Source: Tetrahymena thermophila SB210 (Eukaryota; Ciliophora; Oligohymenophorea; Hymenostomatida; Tetrahymenidae). Taken from it: 64,000 nt of DNA. The stretch covers positions 992,001 to 1,056,000 of the forward strand of contig NW_002476463.1 of assembly GCF_000189635.1 (NCBI RefSeq), read 5' to 3'. The position numbers and the translations under genes are program-made. The first letter of the stretch is position 1. Each line of letters opens with the position of its first letter. The notes below the pieces were generated by a model, which worked only from the letters and a program-made list of their open reading frames with translations, made no database searches and had not been told where the DNA came from. This document shows positions 40,716-64,000 of this stretch, one piece after another.

Positions 40716-41720
40716 TCATCCAATTTTTAAATATTTATCTAAGAATTATTAAAATAATAATTTACCAAAAGGAATTTTAATATTTATTTATAATTAAATA
40801 TTATATCTATTTCTTTTTTCATGTATAACCAACAATTTTGTTGAATTAATTCTAGATTGTATTAGTTAATTTAGCAAAATAATTAAAAATAATCAAAGTA
40901 ATATTTTATTGTAATAAATTTATCAATTAAAATTATTATATTTTCTTTGATTTTAAAATTAATTTAACAAAAAAATTAATAAATATAATTTGAAATAAAT
41001 GTTATAATTAATAATGAAAGATTAAAAATAATATATGCAGCTAATCAAAAACAATAAATATTGTATGAGATAAATAAATAAATATTAAAACTTTAGAAAA
41101 TTGGATGATGAAAAATTTGTAAATAAATAAATAAATAATTCACAAGAGTTTTTAAATGAAAAGTTTTAATAAATAAATAAATAAATTTTAATAAATAAAA
41201 GGTTATAAAAAATTCAGTATTAATAAATCTTATTTAAAATATCTTAAATCAACATTATTTATTGTATGGATAGTTATAAATAGATTGATAATTAATTTTA
41301 AATCAGTAGATTTTTTAAATTACTACATTTATAGTTAGTTAGTTAGTCAGTTATTAGAGAAATTATAATTTTAAACAAAGTAAGCTTTAAAATTTTCAAT
41401 ACAACACATAAAGGTATTAGATTTTATTTTTAACCATGAATCAATAGCTAACTGTAGATAGCTAGTACCCTTATTTTAGAAATTAGCCAATAAGTCTTCA
41501 AGATCTTCCAAGCCAATAGCATTCATAAAATTAATGGACAGGTGATAATAGTTTTTAAATGGAATATTCAGGGGCAAATGGAACCGTCCAAGTGAATTAT
41601 CCAAATTATTTAGTAGCTTAAAACTAAAGTTAATCATCAAGGATTACTCCTTAAATGAATTAAAGCTTTTAAAATTAATCAAGATCACCTCTTTAAGAAT
41701 TAAATGTTTAAAGAAATAGC
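40716..41720. other. AT-rich intergenic region with AATA microsatellites
   Basis: No gene is supported. Runs of AATAAATAAATAA occur at about 41065-41190, and TAGTTAGTTAGTCAG at about 41335. A weak protein-like stretch at 41430-41660 does not join the next gene in frame. Confidence 0.45.
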
Positions 41721-43253
41721 ATGAATAATCTTATTTAAGAAAATGAATATGAAAATAACGGACCTAAGTATGTAGCTTTTTAGCTTCCTGCAATCATGTG
41801 CACTAAAGGAAAAGGCAACTCAATACACGCTCAACATGATTAGCCTCTAACTATGGTATGTGTTGATAGAAATTGTCTTGATAATAACTAATTTTTGTTA
41901 TGTTCTATTTGTAGCTAAACTGATCACTAGTTTCACGAATAAGTCCCACTAAAACTTCTGATACACGATATAATAGCATGCTTGAACGATAAAAAAGACT
42001 CACCGAAAAAATTAAGCAGCAAACTGGCAAATTTAAGAGCAGAGTCCTTGTAGCGTGTAAAAGAAATAAGATAAAAGATATCCTAGAGATTAGATGAAAT
42101 TGAATAAGAGATTATTTTTCTCTATGAAACTCTTTAGGAGCATTAAATAAAATAAGTTATTAGATTTTCATAAAAAGATGTTCTTGAGGGAATTGATAAT
42201 CTAATGAGTTGTAAGACAAAGGAGCATCTGTAAGCGGAAATAAGAAACATTATGAATAATACGCACATTGATAGTGGTAATGCAAATAATTTCGGAGTAG
42301 ACATTTTAAATGAAGCAATAGCAGAAAACACCTTATAAGATATTGGAATTAAACATGAAAACTTGACAAAATTACTAGTTAATCTTTAAAAAAGCTGTGA
42401 AGATTTACTTTAAGATAAAGAAAAATTAGTAGCAAACTTCACAATTAATTGCAATGAAAGCTTTAGTGTACACCCAACCTTAAATAACTCAGCAGTGGCT
42501 GCCTTAAATAATCATTCTGCTCTTTAGGAAAATATCGTACATCACAAAAATACTATTTATGATCCAGATTATGTAAACAAAAAAGGAGGGTTGCAAGGGA
42601 GTGGAGACTCTTTTAATAACATTCCAGTAGACGAACCTTAGAGTTTATTATAAACATCTTTTATGTCTCATACTTCTAAATCTAGCAATATCTTGACTTA
42701 GCGTTTCGAATTCAGCAAGACAATGCGTGATCCTAACATAGTTTTGCAAAGGAGAGTAATTATTAACGGTAATTACGAAGGGAATAATGAAAGATTACAT
42801 TATCGTGTCTAACTAGTTTTACCAGAGCTAGAAACAGCTACGCCAAGTATTAAATAATGGAGCTTTAAAATTGCTAGATAGTTACCTCACTGGATTGGAT
42901 TTGGAGTTTGTCATGTAAATGATATCAAAAAGCAATAATTCAAACTAACAAACAATGAATTCTCATTTACTCATCATGAAGGCCAAAAAAAAACAAATGA
43001 TCATGGATGCTATTTAATTACAACACACGGATGGGCATTTGGCCATAAAAACTAACCTTAGAGAACTAATCTTCGTTTTAGCAAAAATGATATTATAACT
43101 TGTAGATTTGATCCTTTTAAAAATTTCATAATTTTCTACAAAAATAATGATTTCTAAAATCCCTATAATTTGAGTTTTGAATCCATCTGCTGGAATAAAC
43201 TTTACCCATGTGTAGTATTTTGGTATCCAGGAGATTCTGTAGAACTCCTTTGA
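41721..43253 (+). CDS. TRIM-like protein: B-box, coiled coil, SPRY
   Basis: Single exon, 510 residues, ending in TGA. Residues 27-72 are a B-box-like zinc site (C27, H39, C47, C52, C61, C64, H69, H72). Residues about 85-290 are charged and Gln-rich with heptad character, a likely coiled coil. Residues about 350-510 form a SPRY domain: WIGFGVCH, then GCYLITTHGWAFGH, LRFSKNDIITCRFDP and FIIFYKNN, ending WYPGDSVELL. In animals, B-box/coiled-coil/SPRY proteins with a RING are TRIM ubiquitin ligases, in which SPRY binds the target. No RING is present here, so ligase activity is not expected; a scaffold role is the fair reading. Similar architectures are common in ciliates. Confidence 0.85.
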
Positions 43254-44032: not shown

Positions 44033-47000
44033 ATGTAATCCTTGAAATATGAAGAAAGCTCATTTAGCCCATAAAATCCATTCCATTCTTTTAATGCTTA
44101 AGTATAATATTTAATTCATTAATATGATAATTTTATATAGAAATTATTGTGATATTATTTTAGGAGCACCAAGAATTGAATGATATTTCAAGAAAAAAAG
44201 ATGATAGCGTTATCTCTGATCGTAGTATACAAAAAAATATAGAAATAATTCCTCATATAAAAAATGAAGCTAAATCTATTTTGTAGTCAATTAAAAATTC
44301 GCCAATCCATCATATAAAAACATCAATAGAAGCTAGCTAAAGATTTATCGAAGCAAGTCAGGATATAAATCCCAGCTAAATGATTATCCATAACAGAAAA
44401 AAAGGAGAAACAGTGATTTCAAACTTAACTAATCATGATGAAGCAATACAGAAATAATTAGAAAGCAAATCTATTAAATAAATTTAAGAAATGAAAGAAC
44501 CTCGAAGACTCATGCTTGCAATTAATTTGCTTGTGAATGTTAAAGGGTTTTATCGTAAAGTAACTTAAAATTCAAGACTAATTGAAAAATTATCAAGAGA
44601 GTAGCATAACTAAATTGGAGATTTATCTTCATTTTTTACAAAAAATTAATTTTCAAAAAAAGTCAAAAGACTTTTTAAATTCTAGACAGCATTTAAAAAC
44701 ATGGTAGCTTAATTAAACAATAATACAAAGTATATTCCGATTTTGGCTCCGTACAGCATATTTAAGCAAATATGGGATCTAATTTAGACAATCCTAGAAA
44801 TGATAGTTTCTTTTCTCTTTAGTTTGTATATATTCTTTCAACTTGATGTTTAAGAATACAACAATCTCTTCTTAATTTGTTTTATTCTTTTTTTCTGCGA
44901 TGTTCTTGTTAATTTCAACACCGGAATTCTTTAAGAAGGTACAGTTATCTACAAAAGAAAGCTAATAGCTTAGGAATATATAAAAGGGAATTTTTTTTTT
45001 GATATAATTGGTCTTATACCCTTCATGAATTTTTTCTGGATAGGTGGAGTTGCATATTCTAGAAGAGAAGTGAACACCGTGCTAATGAGCTCGCTAATAT
45101 CCATGAAGTGGTTTTCTCTTGGAGCAAATCTTGGAAAGCTTACTTTTTTTCTAAGCTATTAAAAAGGGATGAAAAATTCACTTGATTTGATAAAGCTAAT
45201 TTTTCTTATGCTTTGCGTTTGCCACTCATTTAGTCTTGTGTGGCATGGGTTAGCTATATACGAAATATCATATCTGTAAAGAGATGACTCGTGGCTTTAG
45301 TAATATCAGATACTTGATTTTAATGTTTGGGTAAGATACTGCTATTCTTTTTACTATTTAACAGTCACTATGACAACCACCGGATATGGTGATATCACTC
45401 CAAAAAATTATATTGAAGTGATGTTTGCAATAGGAATCATTTTTATAACAGCTATTTTCTGGGCTTTCTTCTTAAATAAAATAGGTTAAATTATTGATAA
45501 TATGGAGGAGAAAGAAAAGCAATATACAGAAAATATGCTTGTAATACATAGATTAATGAGAGAAGAGGAAGTTGACAAGGAGTTAAGGGTAAAGATCTCA
45601 AATTACTTGAAGTATTTGTATCAGGTATTTCTACAATAATATCGTTTATTGAATAATCTTAAATAAAATTCTTAATATAAACTTGAAAAAGTATTTATAA
45701 TTTTATATACTTATTATATTTAAATAGGAATCAAATTAAGTACAAAAATCGAAGGAGAAAGAAATTATGGATAAACTCTCCAAGCAGTTGAAAGACGATC
45801 TTATATTGGACATGAATGGTAAATTTATAAGAAATATACCAATTTTAGAGAAACTAGAATCAAAGAATAAAATAGCTTAATCCATGGAAGAGTGTTTATT
45901 TTCTCCTGGAGAATATATTTTTAAATAAGATTAACTGGATGATTCTTCTTTGTATTACATAGCAAAAGGATCTGTAAGTATTGTTTTTGAGTCAGAAATT
46001 AACTTTAGAAGCTAAATAAACGTGATCTAAACTTTAGGTAAATAGCAATACTTTGGAGAAATTGGTTTTCTTTTTTAATCTAAGCGTGCTTATTCTGCTA
46101 AAGCTAATAACTTTTGCAGGCTTTTTAAATTACAAAGGGTTATTTTTGAATAGATAATTAAGCAATCCGAACATGATTTTGAAAATTTTTAAATGACCAA
46201 AGAATCAATCCTTATGAAAGATAATTATAAATTTTAAAAGATCAGATGCTATACTTGCAATCAAGGAAATCACTTGTCTCATAATTGTCCTAAAACCCAT
46301 TTGACTATTTCTAAATAGGTGCATATTAATCGCCACAACTACTCATAACCACACAAAGAGAGAAGTAATTTCACTAGATGTAGAATTAAGATCAATAGTT
46401 TAATTACCATGGTGATAGCTCATAATGCAGTATTTTAGATAAACGATAATGTTGACTTTTTTGAATATCTTGATAAAATAGAAGAAGGTTTAAATTTATC
46501 TGACTAAGATCAAGATTAAGATTTCGATTACAGCGAAGCATACAACACAGATAACGAAAACTACTCTGATCATGATTTAAATCAAAATCATTTTTAAAAG
46601 TTTGATGAAATGGGTTCTGCTGATTAAGAATTTTCAAGAACTCCTGTTACAAAATCAAGATCATTGGTAAAAAAAGGTACAGCTAATTCATCTGTTCCTT
46701 TGCAACCAGGTAGGCAGAGTATCATGGAATAAAATGTGATGTCTTTCTAAAATCAATAGTAATCAATTATTGATGAAGCTTACCATAGAGAGGAAGAATC
46801 ATAACCTTCATCAAAAAGCTCAATATCTTCTTCAGATTAATTATCAGATAAAGATTAGTCATAATACACACACACAGTCACTAATAACGATACATTAACA
46901 TCTAAAACAGGTTAAAGGTAGAACTAAGAACAGAATATACCTCAGATTGTTAGAAAGTAAAAATCTAATTAAACATTTGTTAGAGGGGATTCTAAAAAGT

Positions 47001-48070
47001 TGAGTCACAACGTCACTGGAGAGCATTCCTCATTAGCTAACTAACTCAAAGGTTCATAATTGCTCCCCATCACAACTATTTTACCTCCGACTGATTCATA
47101 AGTATTTAATCAAGAATATCATCAAAATCAACCTAACAATAAAAGAATTGTTTCTGAATTACAGCCTTTTAAAGATAATGATTCACATGTAGGTTCTCTA
47201 ACTTCAATTACAAGCAGATCCAGAGTCCCATCGAGGTTAGTACTGAATGAAAAAGATAACAAAAGAAACCCAACAACAAATTCATTCTAAGACTAAAATT
47301 AGCTGAATGCGAATAATAATGAATAGATCCGTTCTTTGACAAAAATTTCTACCCACTCAGCCAGAGAAAAGTCCCCTATTTAAAATTCTAACGTGAATTA
47401 AAATTAACAACAATAGAATGCAAATGATAAAAAACCTATGAAAAATAATAGCATAAATGAAATAGTTTAGAGTAGGAGAAGCAGGTTGAGTGAACGAAGA
47501 AGCATAGGAAGAGACCTATAATTTAACAATTAATTATAGCAATAGCTTTAGGAAATGCTGATAAGGAATCCTACAAGAGGAAATAATAAAAAACTGAGTA
47601 AAACGGATATATAAAATATGGCTAAATAAAAAACACGTGCTTCAGTTTCAGTAGATAAATTAGCAAATTAAATAAAAATGCTGTAAAACCTAAAAGGATA
47701 CACCACGAATCAAACTTTAAAATCTAACAATGATAAAAATAATCTTTAAAAGTAAAATACTCCAACTAATTCTAACAATATAGAAGAACAAATAATGTAT
47801 GTCCTAAAGGACTAGATAGATTTATAATAAATATAAATAGGAATGGAGGAAGAAATAAGAGACCAAACAAATTATTTAAATATTTAAGAATTCGATAGAG
47901 CATTTACATTTAAATTTTATTATAGAAATGATAATTATCTTCTTGTTGTTGAAAGATATCAAGAATATTGGAAGAAAATGAACAATTTATTAGACAAAAT
48001 TGCCAAAAAAAACAAAAAAAAAACAAAAAAACGTTTGAAATCTAAATTAGGCGGAAAGTAAGTTTTCTGA
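44033..48070 (+). CDS. K+ channel with CNBD and zinc knuckle, paralogue 1
   Basis: Exons 44033-44101, 44164-45624, 45728-48070; 1290 residues. A conserved N-terminal module (RRLMLAINLLVNVKGFYRK) precedes six membrane helices. The pore has GYGD at 430-433 preceded by TTT rather than the TV of its paralogues, so it should pass K+. After S6 comes a C-linker (MREEEV, then SNYLKYLYQ at the exon end), then a cyclic-nucleotide-binding domain with SPGEY and the phosphate-binding cassette FGE (619-621) with a following Arg. Exactly 65 residues after F619 is a CCHC knuckle: C684, C687, H692, C697, then PKTH. A further conserved block reads INDNVDFFEYLD. The tail is long and Gln/Asn/Ser-rich and ends with FKFYYRNDNY and a Lys-rich stretch. 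S4 lacks regular Arg/Lys residues, so voltage sensing is probably weak and gating by cyclic nucleotide or another ligand is inferred. Confidence 0.92.
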
Positions 48071-50614
48071 ATAAATTTATATTTAAATACATCATTATCA
48101 ACTAGCCAAATAAAAATACACTTCAAATAATACATTTTGATTAATTAATATATTACTTACTACATTCATGCACCTTGACTGTAATTATTAATTTATTTTT
48201 TATCAAAAATATTATACTTCTTATTGTTTTTACCCTCTTTCTTTAAATTTTTTCATAAATATTTTACATTAAATCATTTAAAATATTTTTTGACTAAATT
48301 ATGACTAATTTATTGACAAGTTAGTAATTAATTATGCACAATTTCAATGTCATCGTTAATTTATTTTTAATAAAACTAAGCATTTCATTAATTTCTTTTA
48401 TTTTACATGTTTTAATAAATATTTTATCTATTTATTTTTGAAATAAATTTACAGTAAATCAAATAAAAAATGATAAAATTTGCACAAAGCATTTTTTATA
48501 GCACTAAATAGTAAAACTATTGAAACAGTTAAATTATTTGCTCAATTTTAGAAAAAGACTTTCCTTACTAATAATCACATTTAATAAATTGTATTTTTAA
48601 AATAAAAAATAAATACTTTATTGAATAGAAAATAACAAATTTATTAATTTAAGTAAAAATACTGAAGCACTGTAAAACCTGAATGATTGTAAGATTGATT
48701 AAAATAGGGAATAATTAAAAATATTATGGTTAATTTGATATTTTAATCAAATTTATCTCTATTTTTAGTACGTGAAATCAAGGTATTACAGATATTAAAA
48801 CTTTTTTGATTCTGTTAATTTTTTATTAATTTAGTTTACAATTAAATAATATCACATTACATTCTAAAAATAATGAATCAATTAATTTTCTATAGACTTT
48901 GCAACTTAACGTATCAATAAATTTATTAATTTATTTATTTCTTTAATCAAAATTCTATTTTTATAATTTTAAATATCAATAAAAGTCACAAAGCTTTTTT
49001 TGCTTGATTGTAAATAAATGAATCTAATTTTTGAAAATTTATTCTGTTATAATGGTCATAATTTTTCAAACTTTATTTATTTTCTTCTTTAAGATAATTT
49101 AAATCAAAAAATATAAAAATATCAATGATAAGATAAAATTTGTCAGTAACTAAAATTAAAGATTTTTTAATAAAAATAAGATAAAATATAACAAAATAAC
49201 CACAATTTAAATTACATAAATAAAAATTAGTAAGTCCCTAACTTTGAATGTAAACAAATCAAATATTTCACAAAAAATAAGTTATTCAACATTAAAATTT
49301 GATGTATCATAAAGATAATATTGTGATGAATATGAATAGCAATAAATTTCAAAATTTATAAATTCATTTAAAAGGAAAAAAGACTGAATTATTTATTACT
49401 TTTTTATAAGAAATAGAAATGTTCTATAAAAATTTTTATTTTTTGATGTATTTTTTAAATATAAATCTTAATATAAAGCTATCTAACAGAAGTAGATTTT
49501 TTTTATAAATTATCTTTTTATATGGTGGTCTGTCTATCCATATTTCTATCTAAATTATATTTGATGCGTATAATTGAATTTATTAAACATTATCCAAACT
49601 ACTGATTAAAAATTGAGAATTGGAGAAATTTCTGTAAATAAATTTTTCTTTGTTATTTTTTAGCATCTTTAAAACTAATTTTATGTTCGTATGAATAATT
49701 ATCATTAATTTTTTAAGAATTTTCATTTTGAATAAATTAGAAAAGAAGATATTTAATTTAGATTTGATAATTTAATTAGTAGGAAAAATAAAAGATATTA
49801 TATTAAAATTTATTTACGTGAATTAAATAAATAAAAAATATTATTCTTATTTATTTATTTGTTTGTTTTGCTTTTTTAATTTCATTTTCAATAACTAATT
49901 TTAATTTATCTAATCTTTTTTTACATTACACCTTACGTTCTAGTGCTTAACGAATAAATTAATTTATGACTAATAAAATTTTTTAGATCGTTATCAGTTC
50001 AAAACTTTTTATATTTGATATGCTTTTATTTTTCTTTTAAAGAATTTTGAAAATAGGTTTTGTTACATTTGAGATATACATATATATTTATAATTTATCT
50101 AGTATCTATAAACCTAATTGTCTTTTTTTTTCAATAATAAACAATATATAAAATAAAATAAAATTAATTATTGATGAGAAATCACTTGCAGAAAAATTAA
50201 AAGTTTAAAGTTATTTTTTAAATAAAAAAAATAAATTACAGAAATCTTAAAAATACAAACATTTTTTATATTTTTTCGTAATAAATAAATTAAAAATTTT
50301 TTCTAAAAGTAAAAATTACTATTATAATAAACAGGTTAATAATAAATAAAAAGTGTTTTCTTTGCTAAAAAAAGAAACATATCCAATAATTTATCAAAGT
50401 AATTTTAAAGTAATAGATGATTGATTGATTTTCAAGGTTAGTTAGTACATACCTACTTTATTTATCACTCGTTTTTATTATTAATTTTAAAATAAATGCT
50501 TTTATACTTGATTTAGTTATTATTAATTAAACATTCAAAACTATTTATATTTCTAAAAAATAATTAAAAGTAGAACTAAGTATCATAGATAGAGAGATTT
50601 AATTATATAAATAA
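48071..50614. other. Long AT-rich intergenic region, no gene seen
   Basis: About 2.5 kb with no coding signal on either strand under the ciliate code. No repeat or structured element stands out beyond A and T runs. Confidence 0.5.
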
Positions 50615-53600
50615 ATGCTTACATTTTAAGATGATACTGTTTTTGGCAATGAAGAGAGCTTATAAAATAAAAAAAGAGCCTTTGTTTTTAATTAAGAAGT
50701 ATCCCATTATTATACTAATTATATTTATTATAGAATAACTTCTCTATTATAAAAAGGACCATCATGGATTACAAAATATAAGCTTAAAAAAAGAAACATT
50801 TGTTACAATGAATGATTCATTTATCCAAAAATCATTATGCGATATTTCTGCTAAAGAGAGTCTTCCAAGACCTGATATTAAATAAGATAATTCAAATGAA
50901 AGTAACTCTAAAGTTATTTCAAATGTGAATAGCTTAAATGTCTAAAGTTTACAATTGAATTTGAGCTTTACTAAAAGAAAATAATCTAAAATGTAAACTC
51001 ATCTTTCAAAGGCTACGCAAAGGAAGTTTAAATCTGAAGTTATACTAGATGAATATAATTAATAGCTTAGCTCAAAGGAACCAAGGAAATTAATGAAAGC
51101 TATTAATCTTTTAGTAAATGTAATAGGATTATATAGAAAGTTATCAAGAAATACAAGGCTGTTTAGTAAGCTTTCTCTAAGTTAGTTTAGATCAATAGGT
51201 GATTTTTCATCTAATTTTAATAATAAAGGCCAGCTATTTTAAAAAAAAAGTTTTATTACTTTTTTTTGTAGATTAATCAAAGCGCAGATGAATGTTTTTC
51301 AAACAATTCCAAAATTGTCTCCATTCAGCTTCAAGAAGAGTATTTGGGATTTGCTTTAAGCTTTTATGATTATCTTTTTGTCTTTTATATTGAGTATCTA
51401 CTTTTTTTTTGGATTGAATTTAACTGAGTACCAAATTTATATCAAATATTGCTCTTTGATGTTTTTAATAGATATTTTTATAAAATTTAATACTGGAATA
51501 GTTAAAAAAGGAAGTATTATATTTGAATAAAAAATTATAGTTTCTAAGTATTTAAAAGGTATCTTTTTTTATGATTTGTTAGGAATAATACCCCTAATTT
51601 ATTTCTTGACAAAAGGAGGAAATATGAATTATAAATATTTCTTGCTATTGTTTTTCTTTAAATTAAGAGTCTTAAAAGAAATCGGTGAGACTATTAATGT
51701 ATTTTTAGGGTTTAAAAAAAACATGAAATCTGTGATAGATTTAATGAAATTGGTATTTTTAATAGCTTTTGTTTGCCACATATTTAGTCTTTTTTGGTAT
51801 GGGCTTGCTATCACACAAATAGATTATGGTAGAACTGACACATGGCTTAATTCTAAGCACCTTGTTGAAGAAAGTACCTGGGTTAAATATGTTTACTCAT
51901 TTTATTTTTTATCAGTCACTATGATTACAGTTGGCTATGGTGATATCACCCCATAGAATTACATCGAAGCGTTATTCACAGTTTTGATTATGTTCACAAC
52001 TGCCATTTTTTGGGCTTTCTTTTTAGGAAAAGTAGGGAAGATCATTGATACTATCGCAAAACAAGATAAACTCTATAACAAAAATATGGGAATCCTTCAC
52101 TAAATGATGAGAGAAGAAAGAGTAGATGTTAGTTTGAGAATTAAAATATCTAATTACTTAAGCTATTTTTATAAAGTAAAATTTTCATTAATTATTTCTA
52201 AAATTCTTCAAAAACAAATTTAGGATAGTAACATTTTTTAACATTTAAAAAATAAAATATAATTCATTTTTTCATACTGAGTCAAAGTTTTAAATGTAAA
52301 ATTCAAAATAAAGTTTGAAAAAATGGATTAAACTTAATAAAATAAATATAAATAGATGAATAATTTAATTTAAAAAATAATTTTTTCAAAGATATTAATT
52401 AAAATGAATATTTTTTTGCAAATTTAGTTTGAAATCATTTAAATAAGATTTTTTGAATATTAGGAATTTAATGAGACATAGAAGAGCTAAGAGAAGATTA
52501 TAATTAGTAAACTATCTAAGCAGCTTCAAGATTAATTAATTTTAAATATTTAAGGAAAATATTTAAAACAAATACCGTTTTTTGAAAAATTGTACTCAAA
52601 AAAAGAAATAGCTATTATTATGGAGGAAGTTATTTTCTCACCTGGAGAATATATTTATTAAAAGGATGATGTTGATGATTGTTCTTTATATTTGATTGTC
52701 AAAGGATAGGTTGACATAGTTTTTACTTCTGAGAAAAGAGGAGAATCTATTATTTAAACATTAGATAAATTAAAATATTTTGGGGAACAAAGCTTTATTT
52801 CTGGGTTTTAGAGAGAACTTTCAGCTAAAGCTGCTACTTTTTGTAGAGTATATAAAATACCTAGAAATAAATTTCTTGAAACAATAAAACTCTATGACTT
52901 TGATAAGGAGAGCTTTCAAATGCTATAAGATGCTCTTTTTCTTAAATAAAACTACAAGTTTTGCAACATTAGATGCTAAATTTGTTAATCCTACCAACAC
53001 CTACCGCAAAATTGTCCAAAAACTCATTTTGTCTTATCAAAATAAGCTCTTATATGTAGACATAATCAATCTCAAGTTCATTTAGACCGCAAACAATTTA
53101 GTAGAAAAAGCTTTAAATTCTAATCTTTAAATTAAATAAAAAATTGCTATTAAGCTATATTTTCTATAAATGACAATGAAAATTTTTTTGAATATCTTGA
53201 TTATTTAGAGAATCTTATTTAATCTTTCGATAATTTCTCAGTAAGTGAATAAGAATAGGAATTCGCTTAAATTTATGAGAAAGAAGATAAGGAAGAAATT
53301 AATGAGGGTAAAAAAAGATAAAAAAAATATTCCTCTTCTAAACAAAGTCTTTTCACAAAAATGACTCAGTAAGAAACACTAGAAAACTTTTAAGCTCAAT
53401 AAACATACTAATAATAATAATCTAATTTAGAATCATAACTAAGTAGCATTCAATATTAAGATGAACAACAAAAAGAATAGGAAGATGACGATTAGTCTTA
53501 CAATTTGTTAAATAAATCAATAAATCTAAATAATTAAATTAATCTGCAGTAGAAGCTAAATAGCGAAGCTTTATCATAAATCAATAATCAAAAGGCTTAA

Positions 53601-54569
53601 TAAAATTAGAAAAAAGCTTCATTTATAATGAATACATTAAACATGCAAGACAGTAGTAATATTTAAGTTTTAGAAGGATAATTTAGTCCACAATCCGAAT
53701 AAGGAAATTAAGTTGTTTCAGACTATATCTTAAACGATAATGATAATAAAAGTTAGTATTTTTAATCTAATTTTGAGTCTCAAAATTCTTTAAAGAGTAA
53801 ATTTCCTTCAAGACTATTATAGAATAATACAGAAAAAAAATAAACTTCATTTACATCATTCAAGGAACATCCAAGTAATAATTTAGCTTAAAAAAGATAG
53901 TCAATGCAAGAATCTTTTAAATCTTAATCCTAAATTACAAATGATTTTAGTTAACTATAGATGAGTCCTCAGCCAGAAAGGGAATAACAAATCTATAAAA
54001 ATAGCAATTATTAACAATTGCATCAATATACTAATAAAAGCAAATTAAAATAAAATATCCATCAAAATCCTTTAAGTCTACATAAAATTTAAAACAAACA
54101 CATATCATCGAGCCATTTGTAAAATATATCTTAAACTGATATTTTAAACAGTTCTAAGATAGCTCCTTAGAGTATCAGTAACTTACCTCACTAAATTCAA
54201 GTTCTCATAAAACAAAGGTAATCTTCTTTAGGTTCTGAAATTTCTGAATCACCACTCTATGGTCAATAAAAAATAAAAACTAAATGTCAAGATAAAGAGT
54301 AGATTCTAATAGGATAATTAAATGATGAATAATTAATGTTTATTTCAAAATAAAAGTATGAAAGCAACATCACTGAATCTGAGAATAATTATTTCGTTTT
54401 GTAGTTTTTTGAAAAAGCTCATATTTTTAAATACTACAATCCACAAAGTAATTATGATCATGTTATTTTTAAGCATTAAAAAGTTATGCTAAATAATTTA
54501 AAACAAAGACAACACTTTCAAAATAAAGAGAGAAAAAAATCAAAATTTATTTTCTTATAAAAAAATTGA
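50615..54569 (+). CDS. K+ channel with CNBD and zinc knuckle, paralogue 2
   Basis: Exons 50615-50698, 50757-52175, 52464-54569; 1202 residues. The N-terminal module reads RKLMKAINLLVNVIGLYRK. The pore is TVGYGDITP with G421. The CNBD has SPGEY and FGE (607-609) but reads FGEQSF where the paralogues have FGEI; the Arg of the cassette is kept. The zinc knuckle is C672, C675, H680, C685, then PKTH, again 65 residues after the Phe of FGE. The block INDNENFFEYLD follows. The tail is rich in Gln, Ser and Asn and ends with FKYYNPQSNY and a basic end. The short first exon joins at the same place as in the other paralogues (its second exon starts DHHGL; compare EHQEL and SHLEL). The second intron, 288 bases, is the longest of the four. 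Predicted membrane K+ channel; S4 is charge-poor. Confidence 0.92.
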
Positions 54570-55641
54570 AATGAAAATTAAATAATTATGTACCTTTCTT
54601 TATAAAACTCAAATTCTTGCTTATAGACAAGACCATTTATTAAATATAATAGTATTGCTTAAACCGTATTTTTATTATATATATCCATACATGAATTTAG
54701 TTGAAACTTATTTTACATCATAATTCACAGAATTAAATTATTCAAATACATATAGGGATTGAGGAATTAATTCATGAATCCTAAGATAAAAAAAGAACTT
54801 CTAAAAAATTATTAAACAAAATATAATTTTGGAAATTTGAATTATAAATACTACCTCATTAAATTTAAATTTAAGCAATTCAAAATATAAATAAATCTTT
54901 ACAAACGAAACAAAAATACCCTCCTTCCATCTCTTGGCTTTGGATTTAGAGCCACTTGGAGGAGTCAAGTTTTTACAGTGTAGTTTTTAAAATAATTTTT
55001 AGAATGGGGAGTACAGAATGAAATCAACTTCTTATCTTTTATTTATAATATTTTATTATTTAGAGATTTAATGAATTCTATAAAATTACCTTAATAAACA
55101 AAAATACAACAAAAAAAAAATAAATAATTAGTCTCTATTTAAATACATAAATTTTTTTTTTGTGTTTTTACAAATTAAACTATGATTTTACTTATATCAT
55201 ATTAACTGTATTCTAATTTTTTTGTAAAGTTTATTTCTATTAAGTTTTAATCAATACAGTTTTAGTTCTTATTTTATCAAAATATATTTTTTAGTAAATT
55301 AATTTGTTTGATTGTTTTTTTAGCAAGACCAATAATTGTTTTTTTCCTATAGAGAATTAAACAAAAATGTCATTAATATTTGCTTATTAGTTAGTATGCT
55401 ATTAAAAACAACTTAAGCTGATTTCAAGAATTTATTTTTTAATTTGATATATATTTTAAACTAGATGATAGATAAGAGTTTAGATTGACCACAAAACTAA
55501 GTCTTTTTACATACATACATACTTATAAATTTCTAGATTTATTAAAGAAATTTTTGGGATTAATAATACAGTTTTGCATTATATTTCAATAAACTATTAG
55601 AAAACAAAAAAACACATAAATATATTAAAGTCATAATCAAA
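54570..55641. other. Intergenic region between channel genes
   Basis: AT-rich with no coding signal. CATACATACATAC runs occur near 55510. It holds the 3' end of paralogue 2 and the promoter of paralogue 3. Confidence 0.5.
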
Positions 55642-58600
55642 ATGAGTTAAGATACTGATGAAAATAAACAAATTGAAGATAAGCATCAAAATCAGATTCA
55701 CTTTGATGTCGAAGTAATCAATATAATTTTTGAAACAAATAATTTGAAAGTATTTTTATTTTAGAGTCACTTAGAATTATCGAAATTTCCATTGAAGAGA
55801 GATGATAGTATAACCACTAATTATTTAGAAATAGTTGATGAATCTGAACTGAATTAAAAATAGAATCTCAAAAATTCTGTTGATTCGTTGAAACTAAACT
55901 TAGACATTTTAAATTTTTCTGATTAGAAACGTTAGTCAATTAGAAGCTAAAGTAGACAAATGCTTACGCCTTTTTAGATAAGAAAAAGAAGTTAATAAAT
56001 TAAGTATTCTATTGACGAAGGAAGCACATCTTCTGCCTAAACTCCAAATTCAAGAGATGGGAAATTAAGTAACTTTACTAGGAGAAGTAGAATGCTAAAT
56101 TTTGTTAACTTGTTTTTAAATGTAAAGTTATTTGTTGATACCCTGCAAATTAATTTAAGAGTTTTAAGCAAGCTAACATAGGAATAGCATGATGCTATTA
56201 ACGATGTTAGTTCTACTTTTGGAAATTCAAATCAGAAAAAATAATTTTTTAATAAATATAAAATTGATGTATTATAATCAAAAATATTTAAATTTCTCCC
56301 AAATATTCCTGTATTTAGTCCATATAGTATCTAAAAAAGAATATGGGATTACCTCTAAGTTCTCATAATCTTAGTATTATTTTATTTAATTAGCTTGAGC
56401 ATATTTTTTGATTTAAGTATTAAATTTATGATACTCGACTTTTACAAAATTTGTTTGAGCATGTTTATAATCGATATGCTCGCAACCTTTAATACTGGAG
56501 TTTTATAAAAAGGTTCTGTAAATTATAGTAGGATAAGCATAGCGATAGCTTATATATAAAAATACTTACTGAGTGATATACTTGGAAATTTATCATTAAT
56601 GATTTTCATTCCATTGAATGAATCGGATAATGAAAAGTATAAATTTATTTAAATTTTAATCTTTGCAAAATGGGTTAAGCTCAGAGACATTTTTTAGAGA
56701 TTGAGTTTTTATTTGTGCTATGAGACAAATTAGAAGAATATACTTGATATTATTAGACTATTCTTTTTATTGATAGGAATTTGCCATATTTTTTGTTGTT
56801 TTTGGCATGGATTAGCTATGTACGAAATCAGCATAGGAAATTAAAATACATGGATGCATCATCTAAATATAGTCAATACTTCAATCATGGTAAGATATAC
56901 TTACTCCTTTTATTTTCTCTCAGTAACTATGATAACTGTTGGTTATGGAGATATTACTCCTCAAAATCCTATTGAAATAGCCTTTACAATAGCAACTATG
57001 TTTGTTACAGGAATCGTGTATGCATTTTGTCTGAACACAATTGGATTTATCATTGACGATATTGAAAAAAAGAATAAAAATTATAAAGAAAATATGTAAG
57101 CTATACACTAACTTATGAGAGAAGAAAATGTGAATAATGATATTAGAACTAAAGTGTCTAATTACTTAGAGTATTTGCATAAAGTATTTGCTATTTCTTT
57201 ATAAAATATTTCCTCAAGAATATTTTTTAATTTATTATTCAAAAATACCAAAAAAAAAATTTACTTTTTTTTAAAGCTAATTAATTTGATGTTTTAAAAT
57301 TTTAAAATAATTGTTTAGGGATAAAATGAGATTTTATAAAATAAGCAGAAAACTATAATTGAGAAATTTTCTTAATAGTTGTAAAGAGATTTCATGATTG
57401 AAGTAAAAGGAAAATATATTAAGGACATTCCTATTTTTAAATCCTTGACTGAAAAAAATTAAGTTATTCTTTTGATGGAAGAAGTAGTTTATTCCCCAGG
57501 AGATTACATTTATAAGTAGGAAAAAAGAGACGATTATTGCCTATATTATATAGTAAAAGGAAAAGTGGAGTTAACTCAGACTCATTTTAAAGAAAAAGAA
57601 ATTGTTCTAACAACGAAATCTAGGCAAGAGTATTTTGGTGAAATTTCTTTTATTACAGGATGCATAAGATAGCATACAGCAAAGGCTGTTGATTTCTGTA
57701 GAGTGTATAAAATTAATAGATAATAATTTCTTAATGCCATAAAATAGGATGATCATGATTATGAACTATTTTAAATGCTTAAAGATACAATAATTTATTA
57801 AAAAGAATATCAATAGTGTACATAATTATGCAAAACTTGTAATCAAAATGGCCATTACAAAACATATTGCCCTAAAACACATTATACATTAAATAAATAA
57901 ATTTTAGCTGCTAAATTATTTTACTCAGAGCCTCATGCTAAAAGAATGGATTTTCATAGAAGAAATATAAGCAAGTAAAAATGTTTATTATTACTTAAAT
58001 AGCTTGATGAAGCTTATTTCAAAATAAATGAAAATTAAGATTGCTTCAATGCATTGGATGAAATTGAGAGAGGATTAAATATATTTGAAGAAATGAATAT
58101 TGATGAAATAAATGATTAGTATCTTGAATGTATAAATGAAGAAGATGAAAATATGAATAGTGAACCTCTACTACAATAAAAATATTTTAAAACAAATTAT
58201 TCTATAGGATCTTAAAAGAGAATCTAAATGACTCCAAATTTATTCAATTAGGATACGACATAAAAGCAGAACTAGCAATACTAATTACATTTTAGATGTT
58301 CATTGCAAGAATTTGATGTAAATGAAAATGGTTATAACAATAAAGTAAACTCTTCATCTTCAAATTCTTTTTAATCTTCATAAATGTCGTGTTCTAACTC
58401 TGGTAATAAATCAATAATCTATTCCCCTAAAATTATATAAGAAAAATCTAAAAGTTTAAACGAAGAGAGTTAAATCAACAAAATTCCTAGTTATTTAAGA
58501 TAAAAAACTTCTTAAAATGGCATAAAATAAGATGATTTGCGTAAAATAGTTACAACAGATCTCGATCAATCTTATAGCAAAAATTCAAACACTCTACAAA

Positions 58601-59454
58601 AATCAAGCATAAATTCATCAAATTAATAGGAGAATTTAAATTAAAAGTAAGAATATGTTATCTAAACCAATTTATTTGGTCCATAAATTTCTCAAAGTTA
58701 TTCATAAAGTATTACAGATATTGAAAAAGTCTAAAAATTATAAACAATTGACTAAGATAATAATGAAAACGATATAAATTCAAGTAAAAGAAAGAAAATT
58801 AATTTACCTTAAGAAAATTTATTTAATTATTAAGGAAATACTGAAGGTTTCTTTTAAAAAAATGAAAATTAATATTTAAATGAGAATTATCAAACTAAGT
58901 TTTGTTTTAAAATTTAAAATAAGAATGATGCAAGCGAAAATATGATGAGATAAAACGAACATAATTTAGCAGGATAAAATAAATCAAATCTGTCAATTAA
59001 CTTAGATTAACATTAAAATAGATCTAGAAAAAGCTTTAAAGGTATAAAAAGATGTATAAATAGTTAAGAAACTCTTCAATCAACCATTAATTAGTTTTTA
59101 AATAATCTTAAACAATCAAATATTAAACAAGCTTAAGATTTAATGACTGTTGGTTTCTCAAAATCAAGTTTACAAATGAATAGAGATAAATTTCTATATT
59201 CTACTAAGTTCGAAGAAAATGTAGATACTATTCAAGACGAAACTAGCTAGATTCTTATTATGCTTGATAAGCCTCACATATTTTAACATTACTTTCCATA
59301 ATATAACTTTCCAATCATCTTAGAAAAAAGACACAAATTTTTCATTAAAAGATAAGAAAAGAAGAAGAGAGATAGAAAATAAAGTTCATAAAAAAAATCT
59401 GTCACATAAAAGTAAAAGTTCTTCTTTTCGTAATATATAGGCAATAATTCTTGA
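55642..59454 (+). CDS. K+ channel with CNBD and zinc knuckle, paralogue 3
   Basis: Exons 55642-55713, 55765-57183, 57319-59454; 1208 residues. The N-terminal module is the most diverged (RMLNFVNLFLNVKLFVD). The pore is TVGYGDITP with G417. The C-linker is MREENV, then SNYLEYLHK at the exon end. The CNBD has SPGDY and FGE (603-605) with the cassette Arg kept. The knuckle is C668, C671, H676, C681, then PKTH, 65 residues after F603. The block INENQDCFNALDEIERGL follows. The tail is Gln/Asn-rich and ends with FQHYFPQYNF and a Lys-rich stretch. Exon two is exactly as long as in paralogue 2 (1419 bases), suggesting these two are close in the core although their tails have diverged. Confidence 0.92.
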
Positions 59455-60741
59455 ATAATTATGTTTAAAGAAAATTTTTAAAATCTTTTACTTATTTATA
59501 CCTACATATATTTACATACATGAATTTTCTATTAAGACTACATTTAATTAAAACCTAAAAATCATATTTTTTTTATTTAGAATAAATTTTAATATTTTGT
59601 ATGATAAAAAATGAAATAATTAATGAAGAGGGAATGAATTAGAATGCATTTTATACTGATCATATAAATTTATTGATATTCTAATTCTATCTATTTGACA
59701 TATAAATTTTTATATTAATATTTATTTAATTTTATATTATTAAATTTCCATTTTGTATCAATCAATATTAAATTATTTTATAATTAATTACTGCTTGATT
59801 AAACTAATAGTATCAAAATCGTTTGCTTACATAAAGACCCAAAAAATTAATAAAAAGAAATTTCATATTTTATCTTTAGTGAATTGTTTTTAAAAATTGT
59901 TTATTATTAAATTTCGATTTCTATTTACTTTAAAAATTATTAAATTGTTACTTTCTTATTGTATTTTATTTTTAGATTTTGAAGGATTTTAATTAACTTT
60001 TTATTTGCTTTTTTTTGTGATTATTTTATTTTTTATTTAAAAGTATGCCTAACTAAATATAATAAATAAAAACCAAATTTTATTTGAACCACAATTTATA
60101 TAATTGTTAAAATAACTTCAATTTATATAATTTATTATATCATTTTTTGAAATATGCCAAAAAAAATTAAATTTTTTTCAGATAAATACATGAAACCTTT
60201 TTACAAAAAAATTACTAATTTCTATAACAAAAAAGCAAGATATTACTAATTTTGTTAACAGAATAATATATTAATTTTTTTAAAGATTTTTTAAATACTG
60301 TAGATACTCAATAATTAAGGCCTACCTTAATTAAGGCCGATTTTTTGGAAAAAAAAACTTTTGGCCAAATTTTCAGTTTTTAAAATTAAAATCTATCGGC
60401 CTTAATTAATGAGTATCTACAGTAATATAAACTATTATTCTTAATTAAAATAAATATATTAGATTTAAAATTCTAAAAATATTTTCTTAATGCTTAGTTT
60501 TATTAAGAAATTTTAATGATTGCACAAATATTTTATTTCATTCAAATTTAGTTAATTAACATAGAAAATTTAATTTTGGGTTGAGTTTTTGATACTTTTT
60601 TAATAATAATTTATTAATATTTTGTTACTTCTATTTTTTTTAGCTAAAATTGGTAGAATCCTATTAAATATAAAAATAGAAGCTTTAAAATTTTTATAAA
60701 ATAACTCAAATAAATTTAAAATATTTTAATTTAAGATATAC
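59455..60741. other. Intergenic region with a small TIR element
   Basis: No gene is seen. The 125-bp inverted-repeat element at 60298-60422 lies about 320 bases before the start codon of paralogue 4; the rest is AT-rich. Confidence 0.5.
60298..60422. mobile_element. MITE-like element with 25-bp TIRs and TA flanks
   Basis: Arms 60298-60322 and 60398-60422 are inverted copies with one mismatch in 25; both begin CTGTAGATACTCA and continue to TAATTAAGGCC. The element is flanked by TA on both sides (60296-60297 and 60423-60424), the target duplication of Tc1/mariner-class transposons. The left arm is followed by a second copy of TTAATTAAGGCC. The interior has no coding capacity, so this would be a non-autonomous copy. 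Confidence 0.65.
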
Positions 60742-63700
60742 ATGAATACTGAAAATGCAAATAGTAGTGAATAAGATTAGTATTATCCTAACTTTAACTC
60801 TAGCCATATGCTTGAGGTTTAAATTGGAAACAAAGTAAAAAATGATTATTAATAATTAACATAATTTAGCTTAAAAAATGATATTTACCTTACAACTTAA
60901 TTATAATTTTTAAATAGAATGAAGAGGAAGATTTTTATAGCTTAAACATGCGTAAGCAGGATACAATAATGATATCAGCTTCATTAGTTACTGAAGCAAA
61001 ATATTTAAATGTAACGAAAGTAGATTCAACTCAAGATTAAATAAATGTGATAGAATAGTAAAGAACTAGACTAGGGTCAGTGTAATCAAAATTAGAGCAA
61101 TAGTAAAAAAGAATGACTACAGAAAGAGATCAAAGATTTAGTAGTGTTAGTAAAGCTATATTAGGATTTTAACGTAGAAAAATTCAAGATTAGAATTCAA
61201 ATTAAGAATAAAATTTAAATGTAGAAGTTTCTGAATAGTAGAATGTAGAAGTTGTACCAGTTAAGCTAATGAAAGCTATAAATCTACTTGTCAATGTAAA
61301 ATCTTTTTATAGGCAGCTTTCTAAAAATTAAAGGATTTGGGGTAAACTAACTGATTAATAGCACAGCGTAATAGGAGATATAACATCTTTCAGAAAATTG
61401 GAATAAGATTATACATTTTTTGCCTTTTAGATAATTCGAATAACACAAAAAATTGTTAATCTTTTTAGATTGCAAAAAAACTCTGTTTTAATACAAATAC
61501 CATTATTTTCACCATAATCATTATGGAAGAGGACATGGGATTTATTTTAAGCCTTTTTAATAATTACCATATCTTTTTTGCTCAGTCTAAGGAATTTTTT
61601 TTTTCTAGATATAAGTCCATATTAGACCTATTTTAAGTTAACGTCATTTGTTTTTGTGATTGACGTTATTTTCAGCTTCAATACAGCTTTAATACAAAAA
61701 GGTAATCTAAACATAGATAGAAAATAGATTTCTCTTCATTACTTAAAAGGAAATTTTGCTCTAGATTGTATTGGAATTATTCCTATATTTTTATAATCTT
61801 ATGATAATTAATCGGAAGCTGATGCTCTATATTGGATTCTTGATTTATTGATTATTTTCAAGTTTTTTTTATTGTCAAAAATTATTGAAAATATTGCCTT
61901 TTATCTTAATTATGAGAAAAATTCCAAAAACTCTGTTGATTTGGCAAAATTATTATTTATGATTGGATGTGTATGCCATTTTTTTTGTATTTTATGGCAT
62001 GGTTTAGGAGTTTATGAAGTTAAAATAGGAATCGAAGATAATTGGTTATCTGCATAAAATTTAGTCAATGAATAAAATGTATTAAAAAGATATGTTTACT
62101 CTTTTTATTTTTTAGCTGTAACAATGATAACTGTAGGATATGGAGACATTACTCCTAAAAACTAGTATGAGATGTGTTTTACAATATTGACAATGTTTAC
62201 CACTGGATTTATCTATGCTTTTTGTTTAAATAAGATAGGTAGTATTCTAGAAAATATTGAAAAAAAGGATAAATAATACAAAGAAAGTATGCAAATCCTT
62301 CATGGATTTATGAGAGAAGAAAATGTTTCCACTATCCTAAGAGCTAAAATTTCTAATTACTTAGAGTATCTCTATAAGGTATTATTTTATATATTAAAAA
62401 CTATCAAATATAAGATAACAAAAGTGACATTTTAAAATAAATTAAATAAATTTTTTTTTTAAATTAATAAAAACATTATTTTTGTTTGAAAAAATTTAAG
62501 AAAATTTGAAAATAAAATTTTATAAAATAAAAGGAGTCAAATGAAGTGTAAAAGCAATAAGAAAAAAGTATAATAGAAATTTTATCTAACTAACTAAAAA
62601 GTGATTTGATTAAAGATGTTTAAGGTAAATATGTATGCAATCTGCCCATTTTAAGCAAATTAAACTCATTGCAAGAAATTATTTACATTATGGAGGAATG
62701 CTTGTACTCTCCAGGGGAATTTATTTTCAAATAAAAAGATTTAGATGACTCTGCTCTTTATTTGTTAGTTAAAGGTCATGTTAATATTGTAATAGAAACT
62801 TAGAATAAAGAAAACCCAAATACTATATTAAGAACTATAGAAAAATAATAATATTTTGGAGAAATATCTTTTTTTACTGGATTTTGTAGAACTGCTTCGG
62901 CAGTAGCTGCAGATTTTTGCAGAGTTTATAGAATTAAAAGACAAAAATTTCTTGAGGTCATCAAAAAAGATGAGCAAGATTTTGAGAATTTTTAGATGAC
63001 TGTTGAAACATTGATATAAAAAAATAATTTTAAGTTTGCAAATATAAAATGTTATTTATGTGGTCAAGGAGATCACTATTCTATCAATTGTCCTAAGACT
63101 CATCTTACTTTTTCAAAGCAAGTTATAGTAAGTCAAAATAACAAATCAGAACCTCACATGGAAAGATCTTAAACTGATAGAAGAACAATGGATAAAACAA
63201 AAGCTCTCTAATTAATATAAAGATGCGTAAATGGGGTTTATGAGATAAATAATAATTAAAATTATTTTGAAATATTAGATGAGTTAGAATAAGGTTTGAA
63301 ATTAGATGAGTGGTATGATGAATCTGAGTCAGAAGAAGACACTTTTTCTCAAGATAAAGTGTATAATTAGAATATGAAATTAAAAGACGAATAAAATGTT
63401 TCGAATAGCAAATTAAATTTCCTGAATGAAATTTATCATAAAGAAACTGATTAACATAATGATAAATTTTATTAATAGCCTTCAGACATCTCTAGCTAAA
63501 TAATGTGTTTAGAACAGAAAGATTAGAACAATAGAAGTAGATTATCAATATTTAATTTGAATAACAATAATAATTGCCCTCCTTAAACTATTGGTAAATA
63601 TAGATCCTCAATAGTTGACTAAATTTAAAATAATATACCTAAAAATGAATCAAATTTATTGTAAAGTGTATCAGAGTAGAATCAATCCTCTTAATTCAGC

Positions 63701-64000
63701 AGCTCTGAATCAGACTCTAGTAGTACTAATTCTTAAATCTCTTCAGAGCAAGTATCTTAGAGTTCATAATTTCCAAAAAAAAAACGAACTCAAAAATCAA
63801 ATAATAAATCATAAAATTAAAAATAAATTAAAACAAATAATTGCACAGAAACTAACTCCAAAAAAATTACCCAATATCTTGCAGAAAATGAGAACTTATC
63901 TCCTAAATTACCTAAGTATAAAAAAGAAAAAGTAAGTTAAAATGAGGGTAGCCTTATAATCTAAGAAGAAGATACTTAAAAAGATCATACAATAAAAACT
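60742..64000 (+). CDS. K+ channel with CNBD and zinc knuckle, paralogue 4 (3' cut)
   Basis: Exons 60742-60834, 60918-62378 and 62534 onward; the third exon is open to the window end, so the C-terminus is missing (at least 1007 residues). The N-terminal module reads VKLMKAINLLVNVKSFYRQ. The pore is TVGYGDITP with G438. The C-linker is MREENV, then SNYLEYLYK at the exon end. The CNBD has SPGEF, FGE (626-628) and the cassette Arg. The knuckle is C691, C694, H699, C704, then PKTH, 65 residues after F626. The block following the knuckle runs SEPHMERSQTDRR and later NYFEILDELEQGL. The tail is Ser/Gln/Asn-rich and becomes Lys-rich near the window edge. Exon two is exactly as long as in paralogue 1 (1461 bases), so 1 and 4 share a core length while 2 and 3 share another. 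Confidence 0.92.

Follow-up and report, generated by a model that had tools for sequence, protein, structure and literature searches.

Results

Four tandem channel genes with a knuckle behind the nucleotide-binding domain

The DNA analysed here is a 64,000-nucleotide stretch of Tetrahymena thermophila SB210 (contig NW_002476463.1, positions 992,001 to 1,056,000; the window). From ~44.1 kb to its end it carries four tandem genes that, in ciliate-code translation, encode K+ channels with a six-transmembrane (6-TM) pore, a GYGD selectivity filter, a C-linker and a cyclic-nucleotide-binding domain (CNBD). To this architecture the whole family adds one element, a CCHC zinc knuckle of the form CX2CX4HX4C. 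Genome homology searches extend the local array to at least six members, at least two of them lying just outside the window; gene 4 is cut by the window end, which corrects the first-pass annotation.

All four genes exceed the Pfam cut-offs for cNMP_binding (PF00027) and Ion_trans_2, and two of them also for Ion_trans. Each contains a [VT]GYGD selectivity filter, a C-linker intron predicted by splice search and a CNBD placed C-terminally, after the C-linker. Judged by eye and unscored, S4 in each of the four channels (44128-62489) is poor in basic residues, unlike typical voltage sensors, a property that would be more in keeping with control by ligand than by voltage.

The first-pass annotation had placed the knuckle motif exactly 65 residues past the Phe of the FGE motif of the CNBD, and this spacing is indeed found in all four genes. 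The pattern C..C....H....C occurs four times in the six frames of the entire window, each time in one of the channel genes. The Pfam family zf-CCHC (PF00098) is listed for three of the four open reading frames (ORFs), each below the curated cut-off, which a gene 4 fragment just exceeds (Table 1). The PKTH sequence described behind the knuckle is present in all four window genes; in the wider family His is retained in 95 of 109 members and Pro in 85 of 109, which rules PKTH out as part of the family motif. The earlier statement that the nearby tails have diverged is too simple, as the ~60 residues behind the knuckle contain 15 further positions that are invariant among the four genes.

Constraint on the four ligand residues

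We aligned 109 members picked for the motif, with CX2CX3HX4C also allowed; five in-frame members (L134, L136, L138, L142 and L148) are omitted from this alignment. Because of this picking, conservation of the ligand columns partly reflects the choice of rows, and the counts free of it are those over homology-found and Pfam-found places (105 of 108, and 153 in total) described below. Mean pairwise identity in the alignment is 36%. The distance from the Phe of FGE to the knuckle is 65 residues in 106 members and 63, 66 and 86 in the others; 107 members have the form CX2CX4HX4C and two the form CX2CX3HX4C. The only invariant columns are the Gly of FGE and the C, C, H and C of the knuckle. Shuffling the 109 segments, which were pre-picked for the motif, gives an expectation of 0.01 motifs compared to 107 observed.

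On a FastTree tree of the 109 paralogues (124 columns), the ligand columns show no replacement, while the median column shows 30 changes. Over the same tree, the third bases of the C, C, H and C codons changed at least 33, 28, 29 and 38 times, all synonymously, and TGT, TGC, CAT and CAC are all common. No ligand replacement against 28–38 synonymous changes means that purifying selection acts on the four ligand residues themselves. The earlier argument from strict spacing and an unchanged Cys/His set to function is thus strongly supported, and where free loss of these residues in relatives was to be checked, the opposite was found, within one genome only.

The same data bear on whether the motif is a relic or chance pattern without function, conserved merely through young duplicates. 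The genes do lie in tandem arrays, and CNBD genes are among the commonest species-specific genes of Tetrahymena species, according to the main text of PMC6564038. Pairwise identity nevertheless falls to a minimum of 18%, the knuckle is in frame in 105 of the 108 homology-found places, and the contrast between synonymous changes and replacements contradicts an artefact of young duplicates, so that we regard this explanation as hardly credible.

Extent of the family in the genome

All evidence comes from a single genome, the 101 Mb T. thermophila assembly. Homology queries with gene 4 and with a segment of chain C of PDB entry 7w5z, both knuckle-containing, yielded 108 distinct places, every one of which was translated. 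At 105 of them, CNBD and knuckle share one reading frame. At two further places (L108 and L110) the whole knuckle lies in a different frame from the CNBD, presumably past an intron, and L107 (identical to L156) carries the first three ligands followed by a presumed intron, for which no splice supplying the fourth ligand was found.

Among the matches listed in a Pfam CNBD search of the genome, a further 45 places were examined. Nine have the knuckle in frame, two in another frame (L118 and L132), two have it cut by a predicted intron and 32 are without it in all six frames of the 601–701 bases covered. For L115 and L120 (contigs C246 and C249), introns of 67 and 46 bases are predicted between the His and the last Cys, and predicted splicing restores CX2CX4HX4C. 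The 153 CNBD places thus comprise 114 with the knuckle in frame, four in another frame, two restored by predicted splicing, one partial and 32 lacking it.

We compared the positions of CNBD places by eye with two lists of pore matches (at least 150 and at least 139 matches). Among the matches listed, 31 of the 32 knuckle-less places have no channel match near, and many of the 32 show FGE-x-AL...R-x-A, a pattern of PKA and PKG type proteins. The sole knuckle-less place with a listed channel match close upstream is L141 (C198:361600-362300), where FGE, the Arg and the knuckle are all absent from the 701 bases read; it is possibly an outgroup channel. The shorter form CX2CX3HX4C belongs to L102 and L104 (contig C426), and the phosphate cassette is altered in both. 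A scan of viral contigs found no relatives. A scan of genome contigs returned four bacterial CNBD proteins, which have FGE in the CNBD as in Tetrahymena; no knuckle was seen in the frames read around these matches.

Gene structure and pores

The features of the four window genes are listed in Table 1.

Table 1 Features of the four channel genes, in window coordinates
Feature	Position	Strand	Evidence and remarks
Gene 1, upstream coding part, 6-TM pore region, open frame (start codon not fixed)	44128..45624	+	Ion_trans_2 and Ion_trans over Pfam cut-off; exon end by splice search
Gene 1, selectivity filter TTGYGD	45376..45393	+	
Gene 1, predicted GT..AG intron, C-linker	45625..45727	+	Sole frame-consistent solution within searched range
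Gene 1, CNBD	45899..46165	+	PF00027, E 3.4e-13
Gene 1, CCHC zinc knuckle CYTCNQGNHLSHNC; motif reading CYTCNQGNHLSHNCPKTH from 46247	46247..46288	+	PF00098, 17.3 bits, below cut-off
Gene 2, selectivity filter TVGYGD	51927..51944	+	
Gene 2, predicted intron, C-linker	52176..52463	+	Splice search
Gene 2, CNBD	52632..52889	+	PF00027, E 7.3e-17
Gene 2, CCHC zinc knuckle CQICQSYQHLPQNC; motif reading CQICQSYQHLPQNCPKTH from 52974	52974..53015	+	zf-CCHC not listed by Pfam
Gene 3, selectivity filter TVGYGD	56935..56952	+	
Gene 3, predicted intron, C-linker	57184..57318	+	Splice search
Gene 3, CNBD	57484..57750	+	PF00027, E 4.6e-18
Gene 3, CCHC zinc knuckle CKTCNQNGHYKTYC; motif reading CKTCNQNGHYKTYCPKTH from 57829	57829..57870	+	PF00098, 10.7 bits, below cut-off
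Gene 4, selectivity filter TVGYGD	62130..62147	+	
Gene 4, predicted intron, C-linker	62379..62533	+	Splice search; second acceptor also fits (intron to 62536)
Gene 4, CNBD	62705..62971	+	PF00027, E 8e-19
Gene 4, CCHC zinc knuckle CYLCGQGDHYSINC; motif reading CYLCGQGDHYSINCPKTH from 63050	63050..63091	+	PF00098, 18.8 bits on ORF, 20.9 on fragment; curated cut-off 20.8
Gene 4, conserved region behind knuckle: PKTH, K-Q, S-x2-H-x2-R, then I-N-x-N...F..L-D..E	63092..63334	+	Invariant columns of four-gene alignment; homologous stretches in genes 1-3

Across the family, a [VT]GYGD filter lies upstream in all 56 loci for which ~1.5 kb of upstream DNA was available. A contiguous T-x-GYGD reading fails in 29 of these 56, and the filter is apparently split by an intron in several of six loci inspected in detail. 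In one family branch (L031, L033, L046, L059 and L029) the split seems to fall between TTMTT and VGYGD; in the window genes a single exon encodes the whole filter. At the remaining family places the sequence read starts a short way upstream of FGE, so their pores rest on homology and the pore lists.

The upstream neighbour of the array, at 41289-43253 on the forward strand, encodes a SPRY-domain protein (PF00622, E 2.6e-6), which also has a Cys/His-rich stretch that looks B-box-like by eye.

The knuckle is retained where nucleotide-binding residues are altered

The expected phosphate contacts of the CNBD, the E/D of FGE and the Arg, are both present in 86 of the 109 aligned members. The phosphate cassette is altered in the other 23, some of which have probably lost nucleotide binding, and the knuckle is present in all 23. 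In the alignment the knuckle residues are conserved more strictly than the domain's own binding residues, which suggests that zinc is built into the working of the channel. Since the knuckle outlasts the nucleotide-binding residues, its role should be general to the family, as in gating-ring assembly, coupling or a docking step.

Retention in these 23 members also bears on two other explanations. The knuckle could be a docking site for a dedicated partner, for example a ciliary trafficking or scaffold factor, and would then be an address and not a part of gating. Its presence in channels with altered nucleotide-binding residues agrees with this, as do the conserved H, R and R behind it (95/109, 94/108 and 76/107); the wide variation of the residues between the ligands is unlike a single conserved docking face, and no partner is known, which leaves this explanation unlikely. 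Alternatively, Zn2+ occupancy or Cys oxidation could switch the CNBD and hence the K+ current. Three invariant Cys and one invariant His, placed where the ligand-gating domain ends and kept where the phosphate cassette is altered, are compatible with such a zinc or redox sensor. Canonical CX2CX4HX4C sites, however, generally bind zinc with very high affinity, a property better suited to a structural role than to a sensor, and we consider a sensor improbable.

A possible nucleic-acid tether

In a third explanation, RNA or single-stranded DNA would be bound by the knuckle together with the basic stretch that follows, so that mRNA is localised or the channel is coupled to RNA. The residues behind the knuckle (99-125 of the alignment) have a mean net charge of +3.7 over the 109 members, and the best zf-CCHC match among them reaches E 6.1e-8. 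Nucleic-acid-binding CCHC knuckles are marked by a Gly after the second Cys, a Gly before the His and an aromatic residue after the first Cys. The family has these in 6, 38 and 77 of 109 members, respectively, where His is counted with the aromatics. With two of the three hallmarks mostly missing, the tether is demoted from leading explanation. Moreover, each aligned segment holds a single motif, and the residues between the ligands vary freely (column entropies of 2.1 to 3.5 bits), which points to a structural role more than to sequence reading shared across the family. Of the zinc sensing, RNA tethering and partner clamp originally proposed, RNA tethering is accordingly weakened to a doubtful prospect.

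Discussion

A proposed structural zinc module where the C-helix ends

A structural zinc site would be expected to combine, as seen here, ligands that are invariant and fixed in spacing with variable residues between them. In HCN and CNG channels the C-helix is the lid that moves on cyclic-nucleotide binding, and the knuckle occupies the position where this helix ends. From these sequence features, the likeliest explanation, at about even odds, is that the knuckle is a structural zinc module that sits where the C-helix of the CNBD ends and that serves gating or assembly. In such a module, (i) C, C, H and C would together bind one structural Zn2+, (ii) the metal would fold the chain directly behind the C-helix into a rigid cap, (iii) the cap and the basic segment behind it would dock on an adjacent subunit or on a partner in the cytosol, and (iv) the knuckle would serve gating-ring assembly or coupling family-wide, including in members that have probably lost nucleotide binding.

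AlphaFold2 models of the four window sequences have a mean predicted local distance difference test (pLDDT) score of 39.8, and the longest stretch at or above 50, residues 171-188, is the knuckle. A 75-residue piece reaches a mean of 58.6. In this low-confidence model a single helix covers the C-helix segment (residues 2-29), and the first Cys, residue 33, lies four residues past its end, which weakly favours a structural module.

Several points weigh against such a module. The pLDDT values of both models are too weak to judge ligand geometry. Zinc binding is putative: of the 109 members, 69 match zf-CCHC at E<=0.1, and the scores of the window ORFs stay under its curated cut-off. Two members have the shorter CX2CX3HX4C, L107/L156 shows three of four ligands ahead of a presumed intron, and L141 has a pore match upstream yet is knuckle-less in the bases read. 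Finally, the homology queries themselves contained the knuckle, and a single genome stands behind all the evidence.

Comparison with known channels and zinc knuckles

HCN, plant AKT, SKOR and GORK, KCNH and CNG channels likewise have a 6-TM pore, a GYGD filter, a C-linker and a CNBD, and the transmembrane exon of gene 4 matches HCN4 (E 2.7e-18), AKT1 (1.2e-15) and KCNH2 (1.6e-14). Compared with HCN, AKT, KCNH and CNG channels, the Tetrahymena family has an invariant CCHC knuckle behind the C-helix, the matched PDB channels not having been scanned individually for knuckles, and an altered phosphate cassette in 23 of 109 members. The knuckle itself has the CX2CX4HX4C spacing of zf-CCHC knuckles of the retroviral nucleocapsid, Lin28 and eIF3g types; it differs in being part of a membrane channel, where it follows a CNBD, and in mostly missing the Gly positions typical of nucleic-acid binders.

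Chain C of 7w5z, deposited as a T. thermophila cyclic nucleotide-binding domain protein of 1471 residues, belongs to the same family and carries CYNCKKIGHISSSCPKTH. It matches both gene 4 exons (E 1.3e-29 and 6.7e-28), and its best genome match is 94% over 234 residues with 12 TAA/TAG codons inside. The window matches itself at only 92% with 39 such codons in 496, which indicates that they count as mismatches and that the organism is T. thermophila. The entry is a model of a complex IV dimer, and chain C is known here from its sequence alone. In the portions of the supercomplex papers PMC10227065 and PMC10060162 covered by a term search, 'cyclic nucleotide' is absent. Chain C may have been given the wrong sequence, or it may be a subunit that was not expected in this complex.

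Novelty and significance

A full-text literature search, whose coverage leaves out most subscription journals, found no report of a CCHC knuckle in a CNBD channel among the papers listed. In ten Tetrahymena species, the CNBD is reported as one of the seven domains that occur most often in species-specific genes (main text of PMC6564038), and a term search of that main text finds none of 'channel', 'zinc knuckle' and 'CCHC'. The parts are known; within the literature searched, their combination as a family-wide invariant appears to be new. Automatic annotation or public domain databases may already flag some members, because a fragment from the window scores 20.9 bits, just over the Pfam cut-off of 20.8.

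A further-reaching proposal concerns the ~120 CNBD genes, K+ channels wherever upstream DNA was read. In these, the knuckle and not the nucleotide pocket would be the main conserved control element; the channels would be gated or licensed through a metal-folded module on the C-helix, by a partner, RNA, zinc or redox state, and cyclic-nucleotide sensing would be optional. On the sequence patterns described above, we think this quite unlikely.

If correct, a zinc module placed where the ligand-gating helix ends would add a new component to CNBD channels, which are among the best studied of all ion channels. More than 100 paralogues with an intact knuckle, with altered nucleotide-binding residues in 23 of the 109 aligned, would constitute a natural experiment on the end of the C-helix, and the knuckle family may help to explain the many K+ channel genes of ciliates.

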